A DNA stretch of 64,000 nucleotides from Pagrus major (lineage: Eukaryota > Chordata > Actinopteri > Spariformes > Sparidae). Position 1 is the stretch's first letter. Each line of letters begins with the position of its first letter. The DNA lies in NCBI RefSeq assembly GCF_040436345.1, contig NC_133221.1, positions 22,764,665 through 22,828,664 on the forward strand, written 5' to 3'. This document shows, piece after piece, positions 1,314 through 64,000 of the stretch. Under the pieces are notes generated by a model. It searched no databases. It worked only from the letters and a program-made list of their open reading frames with translations, and had not been told where the DNA came from. The position numbers were made by a program, and so were the translations under genes.

Positions 1314-1489
1314 AAAAAAATTAACTTGCAACAAAGCTAACAACTATGCTGCAATGTTTGACTGATTTAAGCAGCTTGAACATATAAAATAAAAATGTGA
1401 AGTGACTACATAATCACTTTAAAAGTACAGTTCAAGTGAATGTCAGTATATGAAAGTTAAGTGACATGTACTCCCTCTGCCTTACTCAG

Positions 1490-2002
1490 GTGAAGCTGGA
1501 CGATCGCGTGATGTCCACAGAGCAGGGTCTGCTGTTTCGTCGTCTCTTCCGCCAGGATGAAGGCGTGTACATCTGTCGCTCCCGAGAGCACGGCTTCACA
1601 CAGACCCTGGCCCGCCTCACCCTCGAAGTCCTCCAGGGGGAGACTGTGGACGAGCTCATGGCACGCGACAACGCCGGTCTCTCTGACTCCTTCAAAGACC
1701 GGTCCTCAGGAGGCTACAGGGCCTGGATGCCTTGCAGCGCTTACAGCAGGAGCGGCTCATCAAGCCAAATCGGCCAGTCACGCACATGGTTCAAGGATAT
1801 CATGCAGTTGATTGGGCCGTCGAACCTGCCACATGTGGAGGAGTACTGCGAGAGGATGTGGTGCAACGACAAGCTGAGGAGGAAACACAAGAGCATGGTG
1901 GAGAAATACCGCCAGGCGCAGGATAGTGCCAGGAAGGCTCGCAGCAAGAGCTCCGGCGAACGGAACCGGACGCCAAGGGATCTCAGCGCATGGGAAGAGT
2001 AA
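1490..2002 (+). CDS. sema3g: Class 3 semaphorin, last coding exon (SEMA3G-like)
   Basis: This is the terminal exon of a secreted class 3 semaphorin, a guidance ligand that signals through neuropilin/plexin receptors. A pyrimidine-rich acceptor ending CTTACTCAG precedes GTG at 1490, and the exon runs 170 codons to TAA. It begins in the second half of the Ig-like domain (VKLDD, then a GLLFRR strand and the disulphide cysteine in VYICRS, EHGFTQ). It then has the conserved TWFKDIMQLIGPSNLP block, the EEYCERMW motif carrying the cysteine used for dimerisation in this family, and a long basic tail ending ERNRTPRDL. The tail and the DIMQLIG..NLP..EYCERVWC-type block fit SEMA3G better than SEMA3A-F. 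All upstream exons are outside the window. The reading frame is intact. The paralogue assignment is inference from remembered family sequences; the class 3 semaphorin assignment is secure. Confidence 0.85.
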   Translation: MKLDDRVMSTEQGLLFRRLFRQDEGVYICRSREHGFTQTLARLTLEVLQGETVDELMARDNAGLSDSFKDRSSGGYRAWMPCSAYSRSGSSSQIGQSRTWFKDIMQLIGPSNLPHVEEYCERMWCNDKLRRKHKSMVEKYRQAQDSARKARSKSSGERNRTPRDLSAWEE

Positions 2003-19300: not shown

Positions 19301-20948
19301 GATGGTTATTACATTCTCATTTATTCAACGAACATATTTTCATTTACTATTTGGCAGGGGACACAGGTGGATTCACTCACTGTTCATCTTAATCTTCCAT
19401 CTAATATCTAATAGAACATTATTATTTGTTAAACAAGCAGTGATATCTTCAGTGATGATACTTGATCTCAAGATTCAGAGGTTTTGGCTCAGGAGAAGGA
19501 TTGTGGCTGGATCACAGTTCCAAGAATCACAAGTTTTGCGAATACTGTAAAAACATGAGAATTTTCTTATCTATACTGCTGCGGGCTCTTGACATTAGTG
19601 TGCCTTTTCTAAAAATAAATAGAGAATTGATAAATACCTAAGCCCTGTTCCACTGAAGTTCATTACAGTAGGACAAAAGGGAAATTTACACTTAATATTG
19701 AAATGCTGGGAAAGTGTATAATCATGTTGAAGTTTAATTTCTCCATCATTAACACAGGAGCTGGAGGTCTTCTTCATCCAAGAAAAAAGGCGTCAAAAGC
19801 AATTCTTCTTCTTCCGCCTCTTCTTTTTTGCCCCAGTGTCTTCTGAAAATCAAAGAACATTAAATACCCCAGCTGTACTCCACAATGTATAACAATTCAG
19901 ACACAAGTGAAGGTGATGTTCCTTACTACATGAGGCCTCAGATATCGAATACTTCGGGTTACTTTGAGTGCTGCTCACTGAGGACTGTGACCTCTTGCTC
20001 AGCCCAGACTAAAAACTAAACACACACACAAAAAAGTTATTCCTGTTATTGTAATTCTTTGCACTGGGAGACCATGTACCACGTCTGGTTGACAAAATAA
20101 TCTGGCAGCATGAGTAGAGGAGGCCAGGGCTTTTAACCTGGCGCTGATTACCTCAATCTGCCGCAGGTGTGTGTGATCAGCCATAGCTCAGGCCACCAGA
20201 AAGCCACGCCCACCAACCCCACAGCACGTCTGAAACACATCAGCACAGAACAACCACCCCAAAAAACACAGAAATAGTCCAAATGTAACACCGAAAACCA
20301 ATAAATATAAACAGGCAAAATCACAGAAAAAGAAAGAGAAATAAAAGTAATGCAAAAATAGAAATGAATAATAATAAATAAAGAATAAAAAATCAATAAA
20401 GTACGCTAAGAACGATAAGGAGACAACATCAGACTTTAGGGTGTTTGAATGCTATCATTAGCTCAATATTACAGCTGAGGCTGATGGGAATGCCTTTACC
20501 TTTGATATAATGTATTTACAGCGTTCGATTAGTATTTTGTCCAGACACACAGAGCAGTATGACATCACCTATATGCAACAAACAAAGTCATTTCAAGCTG
20601 TAACTTGGAAATGAAAACATTTTGCCAAGTTTCCTTAGTGTCTCTTTGGTGTTCAGGACAAATTTCAACCCAAACCAGTGAAAAATGAGCGATTGGTGAT
20701 GTTTTGAATACACAAACAAAGAATCACAAAAATGCTGAAATTCAGCTCAGAGGGCCAAACTCCAAAAATTCATAACAGATGTTTGTTTTCAAAAAGTATT
20801 TGAAAACAAATGTTTTGTGTGTGTGTGTGTGTGTGAAAAGAATCAAAGATTTATTTTTTTTTGGCCAATAGAATCAAAGCCAAAAGAATCAAAGACAAAT
20901 AGAACCTATAGAAGTCTGTATCAGGTCTTCAACATTTCTTCAGTCCAA
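14029..20948. other. Non-coding intergenic stretch
   Basis: No gene could be supported. Contents include a dispersed repeat around 15370-15540 (GGGGACCA motifs and AGGGTTAGG), a long (AT)n tract at 16296-16369, and a likely mobile-element fragment around 20100-20240. Short open frames lack domain matches and credible splice context. Confidence 0.5.
16296..16369. repeat. (AT)n microsatellite
   Basis: About 74 bp of uninterrupted AT dinucleotides. Such tracts are highly polymorphic and prone to cruciform formation. Confidence 0.98.
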
Positions 20949-20993
20949 CTCTTCTTCAACCACTGACCCAGCCGTGAAAACAAGGGAAAGAAA
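20949..20993 (+). pseudogene. 5' fragment of coiled-coil gene copy 1, cut off by AHI1 retrocopy
   Basis: This stretch reads TDPAVKTRERKA in one frame and is nearly identical to 25846-25890, one mismatch in about 45 bp. It is followed at once by the AHI1-derived 5' leader instead of the basic segment KKSFKRKTSL found in the downstream copy. The continuation of this gene reappears at 24471 after the AHI1 sequence, so the fragment is best read as the amino-terminal part of an interrupted copy. Confidence 0.65.
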
Positions 20994-21039
20994 AGCACTA
21001 AAAGCACTTTTGCACTAAAAGACATTACGGTGCCTGACA

Positions 21040-23835
21040 ATGCAGGCAGGTGAGAGTGATGACCGGGCAAAGAACCGGGAAAGATTCAATGAACTGTTCA
21101 AGAAATACACTGAGCCAGAGAAGAAAAAGAAGAAGAAAAAGGCTGAAACACAGGAGACGATTATACTTCAGGATCTAAAGAAAAATCTTGAGAAGGACAC
21201 GGAAGATGACGAGACCATCCTCCAGAACACATATAACCCCGAAGAGGGCAGCCCTCGCTACACCAAAAATAAACGAAGAGAGAGGGAAACAGTGGAAAAG
21301 GTTAATGCCAACGACAGTAAAAATCAAGAGGAGATTCAGACTCCAAAAGGCAAGAAGAAGAGTAAGAGGGAGCTTCCTTCTCCCTCTCCACCTAAGGACA
21401 TCTCGAGTAACATCCAGGGGGATGTGGATACTTCCAAGTCTGAGATCGCTTTGCAGCCAGATAATGTAGGTGGTGGAAAGGAACCAAAGCAAAAAAGCAA
21501 AGGAGCTACAGAGGCCAAGGCAGAGAGTCAAGTGGAGGACGCAGAGGACAAGCTGCTGCATGATTACCAGCAGCAGATTGCACAGGAGGAGAAGAGGACC
21601 TTAAAGAAGACAAAGGCGAAGACCGAGGAAGAGTCTGTTGTCTCCCAAAAAATGACACTAAATAATAAAGGTGGGAAGAAGAAAAAGAAAAAGCTGAAAT
21701 CTGTAAACACAGAGTCAGAAATAGGGGATCATGATGAAGATGCTGACCAGGATGCTGATGTGGAAAACGAAACAGAATCCAAGGGAAAGAAGAAAAAGAT
21801 GAAGAAAAAACATGTTGTCGAAGAAAAGAGTGAAACTGATGTAGAAGCTCCACAGAAGCCAACATTTGATGACAGCCTTGTGCTGGGAGTGTACGTCCAC
21901 GGAACAGATCCCCTCAAGAACAACCTCATCTCACACCCCATGGTGAAGATCCATGTTGTGGATGAAATTACTGGACAGTATGTAAAGAAAGAAGACTGCC
22001 ATCGGCCTGTCTCCTCGTTTTATGAGAACGAGAACGTGGACCACATTCTTCCCATCATGACTCAACCTTTTGACTTCAAGAAGAACAAATCGATCATTCC
22101 CGAGTGGCAGGAACAGATCATCTTCAATGAACGCTTTGGTTATTTTGTTGAACAAAATGATGAAAGCCCCAGAGTTCTGCTCTTCTTTGAAATCCTGGAC
22201 TTCATGACCATGGAAGAAGCAAAAGTTGATGTTGACAAGCATGAGCGAGGATTCAGGAAGATTGCATGGGCATTCCTCAAGGTTGTTGGCGCCAATAGTG
22301 TGCTGAATATCGACAAGAAAGTTCGCCTCCAGCTCTTCTGCCCTCCACCTTGGACAAAAAGACAACCTAAAACAATTGAGGTGGTCGAGTGGTGGAGGAA
22401 GTTCCCCCGAAACAAATACGCATCCACCCTTGATGTCACGGTGAAAGGAATTAAACTCCCTGAGCACGTGGACCCCAGTATTCGGTCCATGATGGCTTTA
22501 CAGGAGGAGAGGGGGAGCATCTCCTACAGTGAACTGCAGAACGAAGTCACCAAGAGAAGCCTGACACAGCCGCTAGACAGCAAGCCGCCAGTCTTGAGAT
22601 GGAGCAGGCTGCCTGGACAGGCCTGTCAGATTCCAAACAAGCTCATGCTGTCACTCCGCGGTGGACAGATGGGCTGCTTCACAGTGCTCTTCTCTCATGC
22701 TGGGACATTACTGGCTGCTGCTTGTGCTGACAGAGACACTTTCCCTGTTGTAGTGTATGAGATTCCCTCTGGCAAAGCTCTGGCTGCCTTTCGTGGCCAT
22801 CTGAAAATAGTCTACAATCTCTGCTGGTCCAGAGATGATCGGAGCCTTTTGTCTGCCTCTTCTGATGGAACTGTCAGAGAGTGGAATGTGGAGGGGCTTC
22901 TCACAACAGCCCAGAAGGTGCTTCCTCATCCGTCCTTTGTGTACTGTGCTCAGTACCACCCCACAGCCCAGAACCTGGTGGTGAGTGGGGGCTATGATTC
23001 AGTGATACGAGTGTGGAGGCTTGATGTCGATGATGTGAATGGCCAGCTGCTGCAGGAGTTCGAGGGTCACAACAGTTTCATCAACACAATTTGTTTTGAC
23101 TCTGAAGGTGGAAGAATGTTCTCCGCAGACGACACAGGCCTCATCATCGTGTGGAAAACTAAAACTAATGACAGCAGGCAGCGTCAGCCCTGGTGCATAG
23201 AGAAGAAAATCGAGGAGAGTGACCTCAGAGGTATCTCCATCAACATGCTGCAACTCCATCCGAATGGGCGGTGCCTGCTCATCCATCCCAAGGGCAGCGT
23301 CCTGAGGATGATGGACTTGAGGCTGATGGTTGTGAAGAAGTACAATGGAGCCATAAACTACAGAGAGTGCATTTACAGCACTTTTACACCATGTGGGAAC
23401 TTCCTCTTCTCTGGCAGCGAGGACGGGATGGCATATGTCTGGAACACATACACAGGTGACCAAGTTGCAGTCTACTCGGAGCTCTGTCATCGCACCGCTC
23501 TCCACAGCGTGGCATTCCACCCCCACGAAAACATGGTAGCTTTCTGCGCCTATGGTCAGAGCCAGCCCGTCCACGTGTACCTGTACGACCGCAAAGTCTC
23601 CCAGCTGGAGGTACACAATGTAAAAGCAGTGTCGACTGTCAGCAGAGCAGCTTCTGTGGACATCAAAACCATCAGACACACACCTGACCCCCCCGCGTTA
23701 CAGGACACATCTGGTGCTTCAGCCCTGGATCAGTTCGCCCAAGCAACAAGACTTTCACTGAAAATGCAGTATGTGAAGGAGCAGCTGGACTCCGCACTTG
23801 AACCACATCCAAGGTTTCAACGTCTGGATACATGA
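21040..23835 (+). CDS. AHI1 (jouberin) retrocopy, intact 931-codon frame
   Basis: The frame encodes a jouberin-like protein. The parent protein works at the ciliary transition zone and its human gene is mutated in Joubert syndrome. Residues 1-270 are charged and lysine-rich. Residues 276-500 hold the conserved AHI1 central domain (SLVLGVYVHGTDPLKNN, IIPEWQEQIIFNERFGYF, KWA-like FRKIAWAFLK, WWRKFPRNKY). About 545-855 form a WD40 propeller with GH/W(D/N) repeats, for example GHLKIVYNLCW at 586, DGTVREWNV, DSVIRVWRL, DGMAYVWNT and HRTALHSVAFHP at about 817. The vertebrate AHI1 gene is split into more than 20 coding exons; here the whole stretch is uninterrupted, so this is a retrocopy. It stops after FQRLDT, before the family SH3 domain, because of a frameshift just upstream of the TGA. 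Whether it is transcribed or translated cannot be seen; the start is the first in-frame ATG after a likely leader. Confidence 0.9.
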   Translation: MQAGESDDRAKNRERFNELFKKYTEPEKKKKKKKAETQETIILQDLKKNLEKDTEDDETILQNTYNPEEGSPRYTKNKRRERETVEKVNANDSKNQEEIQTPKGKKKSKRELPSPSPPKDISSNIQGDVDTSKSEIALQPDNVGGGKEPKQKSKGATEAKAESQVEDAEDKLLHDYQQQIAQEEKRTLKKTKAKTEEESVVSQKMTLNNKGGKKKKKKLKSVNTESEIGDHDEDADQDADVENETESKGKKKKMKKKHVVEEKSETDVEAPQKPTFDDSLVLGVYVHGTDPLKNNLISHPMVKIHVVDEITGQYVKKEDCHRPVSSFYENENVDHILPIMTQPFDFKKNKSIIPEWQEQIIFNERFGYFVEQNDESPRVLLFFEILDFMTMEEAKVDVDKHERGFRKIAWAFLKVVGANSVLNIDKKVRLQLFCPPPWTKRQPKTIEVVEWWRKFPRNKYASTLDVTVKGIKLPEHVDPSIRSMMALQEERGSISYSELQNEVTKRSLTQPLDSKPPVLRWSRLPGQACQIPNKLMLSLRGGQMGCFTVLFSHAGTLLAAACADRDTFPVVVYEIPSGKALAAFRGHLKIVYNLCWSRDDRSLLSASSDGTVREWNVEGLLTTAQKVLPHPSFVYCAQYHPTAQNLVVSGGYDSVIRVWRLDVDDVNGQLLQEFEGHNSFINTICFDSEGGRMFSADDTGLIIVWKTKTNDSRQRQPWCIEKKIEESDLRGISINMLQLHPNGRCLLIHPKGSVLRMMDLRLMVVKKYNGAINYRECIYSTFTPCGNFLFSGSEDGMAYVWNTYTGDQVAVYSELCHRTALHSVAFHPHENMVAFCAYGQSQPVHVYLYDRKVSQLEVHNVKAVSTVSRAASVDIKTIRHTPDPPALQDTSGASALDQFAQATRLSLKMQYVKEQLDSALEPHPRFQRLDT

Positions 23836-24470
23836 ATGAGCAGGACAAAATGGGGATTACTCACACAGGGATGAGTCTGACATTAGATTCTGGCACAACG
23901 GGATTTAACACTGTTATCTCCTCCGACTCTCCTGTTGCCGCACTCCAAGCTGCAGCTGTCTGGTTCTCTGGTGGAGCAGCTTATCCCCCAGGCGGCTCTT
24001 AGCACCCAAAACCACGGGTTCAGTCCAGTCGGTCAACGTCTGAGAGGAGCTTCATCTTACAAGCAGTTGACTCTTCCTGACTCCCTTCCCTTAGGCCTCC
24101 GCGTGGAAACAGACTCTCCTCCTGTTCAACAAGTCGTTGTCTTGCTCTTTAACTACAAAAGCTAATCGAGCGGATGAACTGACCGTACGCCGCGGTGATG
24201 TCATCCAAGTGCTGTACAAAGACAATGAGTCGTGGTGGTTCGGGCGTCTGGCCAATGGGCAGCAGGGATATTTTCTGGCTTCTCATGTCGCAGATCAGAT
24301 AGATTTCAATGAAGAGGCGAGTCAGTCTAACACAGCCTTGTCTGAGGGGACTGTGGAGAGGTCACACCAACCAGGAGCGAGAAGGAAAAAGAAAGTGAAA
24401 AAGTCGGGAGGGGCTTCATTTTCAGATGACTCAGAGTCGGCCGGGAGAAATGTACAACAGGGGAAAGAAA
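23836..24470 (+). pseudogene. AHI1 retrocopy, frameshifted C-terminal part with SH3 domain
   Basis: AHI1 homology continues past the stop in three successive frames. About 23829-23930 reads NEQDKMGITHTGMSL in frame 3. About 23930-24155 reads PHSKLQLSGSLVEQLIPQ and FSPVGQRL in frame 1. From about 24157 frame 2 carries the SH3 domain (NRADELTVRRGDVIQVLYKD, NESWWFGRL, GQQGYFLASHV) followed by a basic tail (RRKKKVKKSGG). The last shift is one extra A in an AAAA run near 24155. The parent protein would read straight through all three segments. As written, the SH3 domain is detached from the WD40 part. Retrocopy sequence ends at or near GGGAAAGAAA (24461-24470). Confidence 0.88.
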
Positions 24471-25637
24471 CAACCAGACAGCTCGAGCGGCTGAGAAAGT
24501 ACAGCGATGATGTTACTCTCAGCAACGCAAAGATAGCTACTCAGGTGAGAGATAACACCAGGCAGAAAAAGAAAAAGATTATGAAGAGCTCCAAGTTGCC
24601 CATTTAATCAATGAGGAGAAGTTTCAAAGTGACCTCCAGGTGGAGAAGGACAAGAACAAGCTTCTTCAAAAAGATCTGGATCAGATCAGTGTCTCCCACA
24701 ATGAGCTCAGACTCAGGTATGAAACTGATGCCATTAAAGTCAGACAGCAGGTTGACACCCTTCAGGATGATCTTGTGAAGGAAATGCAGCAGAAGACAAC
24801 TGTTGAAAAACAGTATGCAGAGCTGCAAATGGCACATAAACTCAGCCAGGACAAGTTTACAGCTGAGCTCCAGGTGGAGGAGCAGAAGAACAAGCTTCTC
24901 CATGAAGAACTGGACAAGATCAGTGCTTCACAACAAGAGATCAGCCAAAGGTATAGAGCTGATGTCAACACTGTCAGACAGCAGGCTGAGACCCTTCAAC
25001 ATGAGCTTCAGAAGGAAGTCCAGCAAAGAAAACTCCTTCAACAAGAACATGAGGAGCTGAAAAAGGCACAAACATCCAGCCATGAGAAGTTCACTGCTGA
25101 GCTCCAGGTGGAGAAGCAGAAGAACAACCTAGTCCAAGACAAACTGGACAGGATCAGTGATATCAGCCAAAGGTATGAAACTGAAGTCATAACTCTGAGA
25201 CAGCAGGCTGATACTCTGCAGTGGGAGCTTGAGAAGGAAGTCAAGTCTCACGTAGACACAGTGTCGAAAGGCTTGCATATGATTACCAACTTGAGGGCTG
25301 AGCAGGATGACCAAGGAAATCAATAATCGCCAGCAAAACACATTGGAGAAGGAGGGACGTTATGAGAGACATCTGGAGGAGCTGAAAACTCAGCTTAATG
25401 TTCAGATCTCTCTCAACCTTGAGCTCTCCACAAAACTTAAGGCCTTGAAAGAAGCTGAAGTCCCTGAGGGGAGGCCTTGTGAGCAGCAGGAATCCATCCC
25501 TACTGCACCGGCCCCTTAACTTCTTGACATGACTCAAGTCTCTGAGGAGAATCTCCCAGGCAAACCAAAAAAGACTGTCAGTAAAAAGAGCCCGTCACTT
25601 TCTGGGATTGAGGAAACCAAAGAAGTGGAAGAAATAA
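24471..25637 (+). pseudogene. Coiled-coil gene copy 1 (teleost family), frameshifted
   Basis: I do not know a standard name for this gene. From TTRQLERLRKYSDDVTL it continues through SNAKIATQVRDNTRQ into a long coiled coil rich in E, K, Q and L with three 78-residue repeats. It ends in KPKKTV followed, in a shifted frame, by RHFLGLRKPKKWKK and TAA at 25637. That basic ending is, from memory, shared by many uncharacterised intronless-looking coiled-coil proteins of teleosts. Single-base frameshifts are visible near 24565 (A-rich run), 25300 and 25598, and an extra stop lies at 25517-25519. The longest open segment is 24640-25326. It starts directly after the AHI1 retrocopy, and its amino-terminal part lies before that retrocopy at 20949. 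Confidence 0.7.
24619..25320 (+). repeat. Three 234-bp tandem repeats encoding 78-residue coiled-coil units
   Basis: The AAG TTY codons that begin each unit are at 24619, 24853 and 25087, exactly 234 bp apart. Each unit reads roughly KF.(S/A)(D/E)LQVE..KN, then a stretch on the pattern RY.(T/A)(D/E)...VRQQ..TLQ..L.KE. The third unit is slightly shorter and then diverges. Exact spacing in multiples of three shows expansion within a coding frame. Confidence 0.92.
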
Positions 25638-25685
25638 GATGGCTTCAACAACTCAAGCTGTCACATTCACCATCATACATCACAA

Positions 25686-25718
25686 CATACATACATACAT
25701 ACATACATACGTACATAC
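25686..25718. repeat. (CATA)n microsatellite
   Basis: About eight CATA units with one G substitution, between the two coiled-coil gene copies. Confidence 0.95.
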
Positions 25719-25845
25719 AAGGACCTCTCTACTGCGGACAGCCAGTAGATACCATATGTCATCTGTGGTCGGGCATGGGGGGGCAGTGTATCACGGTTAC
25801 CTCCCACAGCAGCACACATATATCTTGCAGACATAGTACGGGGAG

Positions 25846-26029
25846 CTCTTCTTCGACCACTGACCCAGCCGTGAAAACAAGGGAAAGAAAAGCAAAGAAA
25901 AGCTTCAAGAGGAAGACGTCTCTTTAAGAGCTGGACAACCAGAGAGCTAGAGCGGCTGAGAAAGTTATTAGCAACGCAAAGATAGCTACTCAGGTGAGAG
26001 ATAACACCAGGCAGAAGAAGAAAAAGGAC
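25846..26029 (+). pseudogene. Partial second copy of the coiled-coil gene (5' end only)
   Basis: This copy retains the amino-terminal segment TDPAVKTRERKAKKSFKRKT, then a stop in frame (TAA near 25926), and then in another frame a shortened match to SNAKIATQVRDNTRQ seen in copy 1. It lacks the YSDDVTL block and diverges after an A-rich run near 26029. It shows what the uninterrupted gene looks like around the site where AHI1 sequence lies in copy 1. Confidence 0.7.
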
Positions 26030-26139
26030 CTTCATAAAGATGTCAACCAAAAAGCTGACATCTCGCCAATCCGAAATGCTCCCCATACTGTGTCTTTCCA
26101 AAGTAACTTCAAACTATGTGTGCGCTATCTGTGTGGAGT

Positions 26140-26215
26140 TAACATGTCCTCCCCATGCCCCTGTGGGTTTTCCCTGGGTGCTCCGGTTTCTCCCACAATT
26201 TTCAAAACAATTGTT
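26140..26215 (+). repeat. Fragment of a dispersed fish repeat
   Basis: The stretch CTGTGGGTTTTCCCTGGGTG followed by CTCCGGTTTCTCCCAC is a familiar dispersed motif in fish genomes, usually attributed to the 3' part of a non-LTR retrotransposon. It is followed by an A-rich tract at 26232-26243. Family assignment is from memory only. Confidence 0.45.
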
Positions 26216-26567
26216 TAAATTTGGATTTGAATAAAAAAAAAAAATTAAAATTAAAAATTGTAAAATGTAAAATGTAGGACATTGTCTTTCTTGAGGTGGG
26301 AACACATTTTGCCCCTCAAGTGGTATTTCATTTTTTGCACACTGTCAACATGGATTGTCAAATGTCCTGATCAAGAGGGACATAACATTCATTCAGTAAT
26401 GAAAACTAATTGACAAAAAACCTCTTAGAGCTATGCTTGCTCTTTGAAGCTGTACTTAGGCAGCGCTGTATATTAAACACACTTATCAATATCAACATGC
26501 TAACACGCTCAGAAGAGGAAGGCTAATATGTCAATGCAAAGTTAAGTTTATCATGTTCAATGGCGTA

Positions 26568-26720
26568 CTTTAATAATAATAATAATGATGATGATAATAA
26601 TAAACTTTATTTATATAGCACCTTTTTAAAAAGAGAGTTTTCAAAGTGCTTTGACAGTTAAGCTAAAGCAGGAAACTCAGGAGGACAATATTACAGAATA
26701 AACACTCAACAGTCGAGCCA
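26568..26720. repeat. Dispersed repeat with AATAATAAT and ACTTTATTTATATAGCACC
   Basis: The combination of ATAATAATAA, CTTTATTTATATAGCACCTT and AAAGTGCTTTGACAG is a very common dispersed repeat motif in fish DNA. It has no coding content. Confidence 0.5.
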
Positions 26721-26799
26721 AACACAAGGAAGCTGAGTGTAAAGCGTGTTCAAGCTATGGTCTACGATCTGAGAAAGATTTGAAAAAAGCATCCCCCCC

Positions 26800-27080
26800 C
26801 ACACACACACCCCTCCCCTCTGTGCTCCTTAATCCCTCCCCTCCGAGCTCGTATCGCTCTCCCCTCGGAGCCTCCCGCAACAAGAGCAACAAGCCGGCCA
26901 GCAGGAAACCGAATATAGTGCCAGCTTTGAATGCGGAGTAACGATGTCGGATTCACAGGTAAAGTTATTACAATGCCAGTGAAACTAACGTAAATCTGGT
27001 AAGTCATTACAATGTCCACAGCTAAGCTCCACAGCCAAGCTAGCGTAACGTCATTAGCATGTTACAGCTACGTTACGTTA
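26800..27080 (+). promoter_or_regulatory. GC-rich, CpG-containing patch, possible promoter
   Basis: Against an AT-rich background, 26800-26945 is GC-rich with several CpGs (CTCCCCTCGGAGCCTCCCGC, AGCCGGCC). It is followed by ACGTTACGTTACAGCTACGT-type repeats around 27069. It precedes a short ATG exon with a consensus donor. No TATA box was identified. I infer a CpG-type promoter; no transcript evidence is available. Confidence 0.4.
26944..26958 (+). CDS. Candidate first coding exon (MSDSQ) of an unknown gene
   Basis: ATG at 26944 opens five codons (MSDSQ), ending in CAG directly followed by a GTAAAG donor. The exon sits at the 3' edge of the GC-rich patch, where a first exon would be expected. 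No downstream exon of such a gene was recognised before the sema3b gene, so this could be a non-coding RNA start, a decayed gene or chance. Confidence 0.3.
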
Positions 27081-29700
27081 CAGCTACGTAATAAGTTACT
27101 ATTTATCAGCAGCTAAGTTAGCCACTTCTAAAAGTTATTGAGGGCCAAGAGACTAACAGATGCTGCCGTCAGCTTTAATCATAACGATTGCTTCCACATT
27201 GTGGCTGAAAACTAAACCGGCATGAGCCTCGGGCCCAGTTGTGTCCCAGTTGTTGTCTGAGTAGCACCACGACCGCGACACAAACGTGCCCCGTAAACCT
27301 TAATCTCTTGTTTATGACAGATAAAACACACAAATACACACATCGTAACGCGTATATGATAATCCATCATATTGATTTAGCAAAAGCTTCGTTGAAAACA
27401 AATGGACAAGTGCAGGAGGAGGGTTAGCAAAACAGTTGAGTAGTGATCGGGCAAGAGGTTGTTATGGAGAAATTAAATCCGTACAGTATGAATGAAACGG
27501 ACCGCATGGCTGCTATTGGTCAATTTCTTTGCAGTTTTGCAGGCACTAGAGAGAATGGTTTTATTTGGTTCCTTTTGCTCTTCACATTGTGTAGGTCGTA
27601 CTATTGGGCCATAACCACCATCTAAATAATGTTAATAATAATGATCAATCTTTCAAATCGTAGACCATAGCTTTAAAACAAGAAGGTAGAACAGAGAATG
27701 TAAAAACACAAAAAGACAATATGATATAGTCCAAGTAAAAGAAATAATAGCATCCTGTTCTGTCATGCCAAGCTTACCATTGCACTTGTATTTGTATTCA
27801 GCAGATCGTAAACACCTAAGCAAAAACCTTATCGTATCAATTATGATTAACCTTTGGTTTGACACTTTTAAATATATATTTGAATATCGGTCCTTCCTGG
27901 TTACATGTATAATTTCTCAAGAGAAATATTGATGGGCCAGGAATTGGACAACATGCTTTTGATAATACCTGGAGGAGCAGGAACAAGCCCTGAGGGAGTA
28001 GAATAGCCTTATAATGTGGTACATTGTTCTGAGAAACACCCTTTAAGTTAATGTTAGCGAACACGTTGTATTTTGAGACTGCCATTGATTAAAATAGGCT
28101 GAGTAAAGGATGATTATTTGAAAAAAAACTAGCGAAATGGCTGATTTAATGCATGGGACAAAGCTATGACATTTTAACTTCAACTGTGCAGGTTACTCGA
28201 TCTTTACTTAATGTTATGTCTGAAGTGAACATTAGGTAAACACAGAGTTAACGTGACAGAGCCCGAACATTAACATTCACTCTAACAATAAGCAGTCTCT
28301 CAAGGAAAGTTGAAGGGAAATTAAAGATCTGTAGATGTAGAGAAATCTCACAGGGAGAGAAAGCAAGTTTGGTCATTAATCTCTCTGTTCAGTCCCACTC
28401 GTCCTCTGGGAGAAAGAAATGAACAGTTTCTCAGTGTGCCACAACCTGTTAGGACTGTGAGACGGGGCTGTTAAGGCATGTGTTCCCGTCTCAATAATAC
28501 AACTCATTTGTCATTAGATAGATAATGTCATTACACCACAGTCTCAGAGGACACAGTCCATGTGCAAGCTCAAACATATATGACCCACTTTCAGTAGGAC
28601 TGTATATTATTTATCATTCAGTATTCAGACCAGCGTCATTCCTCACTCTTTGACCCCTTCCACTAAACCACAAAAAAAAAAACACTGTTCTTCACGGGTT
28701 GAATGTGTTTGCACTTTCAGAGTTGTTTCACAAAAACCACAGAAGAATTCCTCGGTGCAGCTAGAAACGAGGCTTAATTAAAATGGTGTGGACGTTTTGA
28801 ATCCGCCATGAAGACTTGACTTTTCTTTGGAACGAGCAGTGATTTGAAAGGGATTTATCAAAATTTATTGATCGATATTCATACCCTTGAGAGGAGACAG
28901 TTTCTCTGTTTTGTGTACATGCAAGTCTCATAAAAAGTTTCCAAGATTTTTTATAGATCTAAAGTTCATAACAAATAAATAATTTTGACATTTAAACACC
29001 AAGGTCAAAAGAAATACTTGGTTCCCCTTTACATCACAATGTTGAATGATTTTCTACTTAACAAGTCGATTGAAGTACACCAATAATTAATCCCAAGTGA
29101 TAGTGGGGAAAACATTCTCTAACTCGAGACTTTATCTATGAAAAACATATATTGATATCAACTTCCTTCATCTACTGTAATAGGATTTCTGTCAACAGTT
29201 AACAAGTATGTGTTGGCTCTAACTCCACTCACAGCAACAGAACATCCAACAAATGCCTCCCTGCAATATGGAAAATTATCCATTAATGGAAATAGACTGA
29301 TTACTGTACTGTTCGCCATTAAAAACACACGAATTGCCAAAATGTTTCCTGTTTGACAGGGTTTTGTATCCCTAAAGTAAAACCATATTCAGACACGACA
29401 ACAAAATATTAAAATATGATTCATGTTTTGTGCATTTATCCATACACAGAGCCAAGCGCTCAACTGATCTTGTTTTGTTAAGCGCTCTTGAGGATTCTCA
29501 TTCACATGGAAGTACGAATGGCTACATATGAAAAGAAATATCACTGGAGTATTCATTTTCATTAGCCATGTAAACAGCTTTGCATTGTTGCAATGAAATG
29601 TCATTTGAACCAGTGTGCAGTATAACAAATGATGATATCTTGCACAAAGGAGAGCAGAAAGTTTGAGCAGCTGGCAGTGAGACATGTTGAACCATAAAGG
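27080..29700. other. Non-coding stretch
   Basis: AT-rich sequence without a supported exon or a recognisable repeat. If the exon at 26944 is real this would be intron. Confidence 0.45.

Positions 29701-47024: not shown

Positions 47025-64000
<16,976 letters not shown>

Follow-up and report, generated by a model that had tools for sequence, protein, structure and literature searches.

The window analysed here, a 64-kb stretch of the Pagrus major genome (C7:22764665-22828664), contains on its forward strand an ATG-started open frame of 931 codons (21040-23835), far longer than the ATG frames expected by chance, which reached at most 201 codons across 20 simulated 64-kb sequences with the nearest-neighbour composition of the window. 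The top protein match of this frame was the jouberin (AHI1) of Pagrus major, with 94% over 99% of the query, and the remaining 119 matches reached at most 84% among the matches listed. Codons 1-924 are jouberin, and the final 7 codons, which come after the first frameshift, are not. Both the N-terminal and the WD40 regions of jouberin are present in the frame, the WD40 beta-propeller region being placed at 22651-23565 (+) by a Pfam match to residues 538-842, and the C-terminal SH3 domain lies beyond the stop in a different reading frame. Judging from its sequence, the frame may yield a putative shortened, SH3-less jouberin protein. AHI1 homology was measured from ~21007 to ~24446, somewhat inside the limits of 20994-24470 assigned by the first-pass annotation, which were near the mark, and is out of frame with the ATG past the first frameshift. 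The AHI1 tail (23812-24446, +), including the SH3 domain, carries four frameshifting indels, at 23815, 23913, 24157 and 24364, where only three had been counted before alignment with the parent.

The parent gene, ahi1 with 27 coding exons, was found on C16 of the same genome, so that the refuting case foreseen earlier, in which C7 would hold the only ahi1 locus, fails; the earlier reading of an intronless AHI1 retrocopy with 931 intact codons is borne out by the frame, the protein match and this intron-bearing parent. A search of the whole genome (786 Mb) with the copy gave 27 matches, namely the window and 26 exon pieces at C16:5339044-5348586, and no third ahi1 copy was seen among them. Twenty-five parental coding exons were rebuilt, with a translation exactly equal to the start of the parent protein (P0001, the Pagrus major jouberin), and exons 26 and 27 follow. 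Exon-by-exon blastn against C16 resolved the sequence at 21006-24446 (+) as ahi1 cDNA comprising exons 1-25 and 27, from ~30 nt 5′ of the ATG into exon 27, with 96.5% identity over the aligned AHI1 part. Because the copy crosses, uninterrupted, 25 junctions (26 exons joined) that carry introns in the C16 parent, intron loss is directly evident, and the C7 ahi1 sequence is certainly a retrocopy; its location on C7, apart from the parent on C16, is that of a processed retrocopy. Exon 25 is joined directly to exon 27, like a splice form without exon 26, an apparent 90-nt loss in the tail corresponding to this skipped exon, and the last ~26 codons of jouberin, beyond the break of the copy inside exon 27, are absent. 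Parental exon 26 (region C16:5347030-5348515; L009 and L010) appears to have been skipped in the copied mRNA, and in the parent such skipping shifts the frame of exon 27.

Two marks of LINE-type insertion were sought. No poly(A) tail is present at the 3′ end, where the AHI1 part breaks off inside exon 27 and coiled-coil sequence continues, and no target-site duplication was found at the AHI1 insert, where the host copy has instead lost ~190-200 bp at the joint. A 49-bp direct repeat on either side of the insert (20949-20997 and 25846-25894) was rejected as a target-site duplication, since L045, a locus without AHI1, has the same internal duplication. At 3.5% divergence from its parent the copy is not very young, and an age of at most roughly 10 million years could be estimated with a rate from another fish, using the silent rate of zebrafish, 4.13e-9 per year, given in the available part of PMC3091775 and a Ks of 0.079, which is an upward-biased figure.

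Both flanks of the AHI1 cDNA belong to one dispersed unit that carries a single-exon coiled-coil gene, and 20054-20997 and the sequence from 24446 onward lie ~200 bp apart in other copies of this unit, e.g. L045. The stretch between the joints in L045, ~197 bp, comprises what remains of the 5′ UTR together with the start codon and ~34 codons; it is absent from the window, and the AHI1 cDNA occupies the place of these ~190-200 bp, with only 2-3 bases of overlap at the joints as judged by eye. The position of the copy inside the coiled-coil unit is certain, and that it sits within the locus of another gene family is a new finding beyond the earlier reading of the letters alone. The segment now 5′ of the AHI1 frame (20054-21005, +) was recognised by matches elsewhere in the genome and by alignment as the 5′ flank and 5′ UTR start of the coiled-coil copy, and over nearly its whole length it has 85-87% identity to three other places (C7, and C21 twice) and 81-82% identity to C8 and C23, its second half having 79% identity to C12. 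On the other side lies the decayed remainder of the coiled-coil gene (24446-25640, +; ~1.19 kb), with five lesions, namely frameshifts at 24460, 24574, 25313 and 25582 and a stop in the C-terminal part, plus two in-frame insertions; its sequence at 24446-25551 is 93% identical to the intact copy in L045. It is followed by a second partial copy of the family 5′ UTR and N-terminal region (25846-26041, +), present too in the AHI1-less L045, and by the 3′ part of the unit (26042-27906, +), split by an insert at 26751-27673.

The final ATG before 21040 is at 20810, with none between the two, and therefore a transcript starting after 20810 would meet the jouberin ATG first. The region just 5′ of the insert is conserved among family copies, and it includes a motif that we take to be TATA-like, which reads TATAAGG in three of five aligned relatives, TATCAGG in the window and in L045, and TAGCAGG in L049; its alteration in the window counts against the explanation favoured below. 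The likely event is that a cDNA piece was captured at a broken coiled-coil gene copy, or joined there by template switching, and retention of the 5′ flank of the host copy would favour capture into DNA.

Compared with the parent, the front of the copy (21040-23811, 2772 nt) shows four deletions of 6, 3, 6 and 9 nt, none of which shifts the frame, and no disabling lesion, whereas all four indels (1, 2, 1 and 1 nt) in the 635-nt tail are frame-shifting (Fisher p=0.029). The chance of all four frameshifts falling in the last 635 of 3407 nt is 0.0012. Counted together with those of the remnant, disabling lesions number nine in the adjoining 1.83 kb and zero in the front, with a chance of 0.00024 if evenly spread (0.0016 with seven lesions counted), in a test that takes exposure time as equal for front and remnant, which for the remnant is an assumption; the 4-nt loss at 24460, near the joint, may be part of the insertion event. 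By both values (0.0012 and 0.00024) the frame is open beyond chance, as in a functional retrogene, with the SH3 part lost, in tests that are post hoc, the open frame having been the reason the site was noticed. In the element sequence at the C7 locus, seven of nine window-only indels are out of frame. Three of the four front deletions are clearly losses in the copy line, 108, 107 and 108 of 108 other jouberin rows being longer there. At the first deletion, in a lysine run, 99 of 108 rows are longer than the copy, but species differ in the length of this run, with the parent above most of them, and part of the difference could be a gain in the parent. Exon-boundary slippage was rejected as a cause of the four in-frame deletions, none being at an exon junction.

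Substitutions give a mixed picture. The copy and the parent have 97 differences across 923 codons, and the dN/dS comparison with the parent, proposed in the first-pass annotation as a check on selection, gave under a codon model (kappa 3.8) an omega of 0.44, which is above 0.2 and 0.3 and not significantly below 0.5 (p=0.28), 0.55 (p=0.16) or 0.6 (p=0.08). Since the omega expected for a neutral copy whose parent is under constraint is ~0.55-0.6, this test does not reject neutrality. Omega is 0.49 in codons away from CpG, 0.33 in residues 271-924 and 0.77 in the frameshifted tail (17 changes), and the replacement:silent ratio does not differ between the front and the broken tail (p=0.44). A Ka/Ks of 0.31 by simple counting (bootstrap 0.205-0.464) was rejected as proof of selection, this count being biased by transitions; simulations of neutral copies counted in the same way gave mean Ka/Ks values of 0.36-0.53, with P(≤0.31) of 0.00-0.25 over 18 settings.

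The sites at which replacements fell were examined with a jouberin alignment of 109 rows of more than 1080 residues, among P0001-P0115 (120 listed of 737 matches), rows that include isoforms and close relatives and are non-independent; P0001 being the parent, changes found only in Pagrus are those of the parent's own line. Of the copy-only replacements, 9 of 30 (30%) fell in columns conserved at ≥95%, a larger share than the 11.5% in functional jouberins (597/5205; p=0.005) and than the 0 of 13 in the parent's own line (p=0.039), and not different from the 43.6% expected with no constraint (p=0.14). Eight more replacement sites, one of them in a conserved column, are unassignable to the copy or parent line. 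For the 401 conserved columns, a neutral copy of silent-difference age predicts 22-24 replacements and 9-10 were seen (P 0.004-0.012), with time set by synonymous differences and silent changes assumed to be split equally between copy and parent, and the total of copy-line replacements (30-38) falls only marginally short of what neutrality would give (P of ≤38: 0.05-0.10). The copy is thus in between, freer than a working jouberin and less free than neutral sequence, as expected of weak or ended constraint.

That the copy is an ordinary piece of processed pseudogene, never selected, with a front left open by luck, is a serious alternative that we nevertheless consider rather less probable than an even chance. 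In simulations of neutral decay, the 2.77-kb front stays open with a probability of only 0.0007-0.015 at 2-3% divergence, rising to 0.015-0.040 at 1.5% and 0.03-0.10 at 1%; a lucky open frame is likelier at the divergence of 0.9-1.1% that the conserved columns suggest when taken alone, and the synonymous differences imply more time than that estimate. The same alternative accommodates the omega of 0.44, which is compatible with neutrality of the copy and constraint on its parent, the share of conserved-column replacements, the broken tail and the similar replacement:silent ratios of front and tail, yet it sits poorly with front indels that are all in frame, with nine lesions next door against none in the front, and with conserved-site replacements below the neutral-copy prediction. 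Assembly or base-calling errors, which could cause the tail frameshifts or conceal breaks in the front, are very improbable; at least two of the four tail indels lie within short A or T runs, but the 2-nt tail change and the deletions of 4, 13 and 17 nt next door are not run errors. A functional fusion of AHI1 and coiled-coil protein, suggested by the head-to-tail arrangement of the two parts on one strand, can practically be dismissed: in this assembly the frameshifts between the ATG and the SH3 region, and four more plus a stop in the coiled-coil part, refute it, save for the case that the damaged region is spliced out. Furthermore, a 156-residue query spanning the joint found 25 proteins, none of which covers both parts, the best coverage being 60%.

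The explanation that we regard as best, and as moderately probable, combines cDNA insertion, promoter capture and weak or past purifying selection on the SH3-less frame. A spliced ahi1 mRNA without exon 26 would have been reverse-transcribed, and a piece of the cDNA, cut at both ends, would have been built into a member of the dispersed coiled-coil family on C7, replacing ~190-200 bp from the end of the 5′ UTR through the start codon and the first ~34 codons. The coiled-coil frame would have been beheaded by this event and the jouberin ATG would have become the first after 20810 behind the family 5′ flank, which could have given the copy transcription. Weak purifying selection could have kept the SH3-less frame during at least some of its existence, while decay would have affected the tail and the coiled-coil remnant, neither of which is in frame with the jouberin ATG. 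The arrangement itself is read from the sequence, and we infer the order of events. Selection on the SH3-less frame during at least part of its history, either weak or past, is by itself somewhat probable: the contrast in lesions among front, tail and remnant and the shortfall of changes at conserved sites relative to a neutral copy argue for it, and an omega that does not fall significantly under the value expected of a neutral copy, together with more changes at conserved sites than functional jouberins show, argues against it. Where the first-pass annotation had described the open part as young, lucky, or kept by selection, its contrast between front and tail holds and gains five remnant lesions, youth is weakened by the 3.5% divergence, and the substitutions do not point one way.

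Chimeric retrogenes are known from zebrafish, in which Fu et al. (2010, PMC3091775) counted, in the part of the paper available, 652 retrocopies and 95 chimerical retrogenes. As in those cases, a spliced cDNA copy is combined here with sequence of a new site; unlike them, as far as that part describes the recruitment of neighbouring sequence via new splice sites, the Pagrus cDNA piece replaces a gene start inside a single exon. Retrocopies formed by LTR-mediated template switching, according to the accessible sections of PMC5408686, likewise consist of partial mRNA with short matching stretches at the joints. The window differs from them in keeping the host 5′ flank, and comparing six copies of the unit each with itself brought no long terminal repeat to light; because this flank is kept, capture into existing DNA is as likely as template switching. 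A literature search found no paper on AHI1 retrogenes in fish, AHI1 retrocopies, Sparidae retrocopies or Pagrus major retrogenes.

The Pagrus frame also resembles AHI1 isoform II, described in the available text of PMC3282096 as lacking SH3, in the absence of that domain; isoform II is a splice form of the parent gene, whereas the Pagrus copy is a separate locus. Whether jouberin needs its SH3 domain is debatable, since PMC5270624 cites four people who have homozygous truncations removing SH3 and yet show no signs of Joubert syndrome, and the C7 locus could provide a natural trial of an SH3-less jouberin in which the tail and the beheaded coiled-coil gene, showing the local decay, serve as internal control. 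If expressed, the copy would also exemplify promoter acquisition by a cDNA fragment that took over the start of a different gene. We raise only tentatively the possibility of a new gene made in one step, in which a cDNA piece of ahi1, a cilia gene, would have taken the 5′ flank and start position of one member of this dispersed, lineage-expanded family and would putatively be expressed where the family is, its SH3-less jouberin competing with or supplementing the parent.

The coiled-coil family itself (24446-26750 in the window; L043-L053) could be either a gene family in rapid expansion or a mobile unit. With 24440-26250 as query, 139 matches were obtained (40 of 72 candidates scored), and the single-exon frame is open in all 11 copies fetched at length, which were picked from the best matches (within L043-L053), with 320-668 codons and similar start and end. 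Pairwise omega ranges from 0.38 to 0.85 in eight pairs, at most one being clearly below 1. The copies have a common 5′ edge and several contain a ~75-bp tandem repeat, and no terminal repeats were recognised in the unit. Relatives in other sparids are annotated under chance names, e.g. 'paramyosin-like' and 'keratin, type I cytoskeletal 9-like'. In the 5′ flank of the unit, 20609-20776 is common to many places in the genome and is the only part covered by many matches to 20000-21005 (893 first-look candidates, 40 scored); it is probably a common repeat. The insert at 26751-27673, ~0.92 kb long with 17-bp inverted repeats at its flanks and a CpG-rich stretch within, splits the 3′ part of the unit and looks like a DNA transposon; the five copies compared (L045, L046, L049, L050 and L051) lack it and run on uninterrupted. 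Further out in the window, the frames at 1466-2002 (+) and 47025-47597 (-) resemble what we take to be the last exons of two class 3 semaphorin genes facing each other, and the retrocopy would sit between them.
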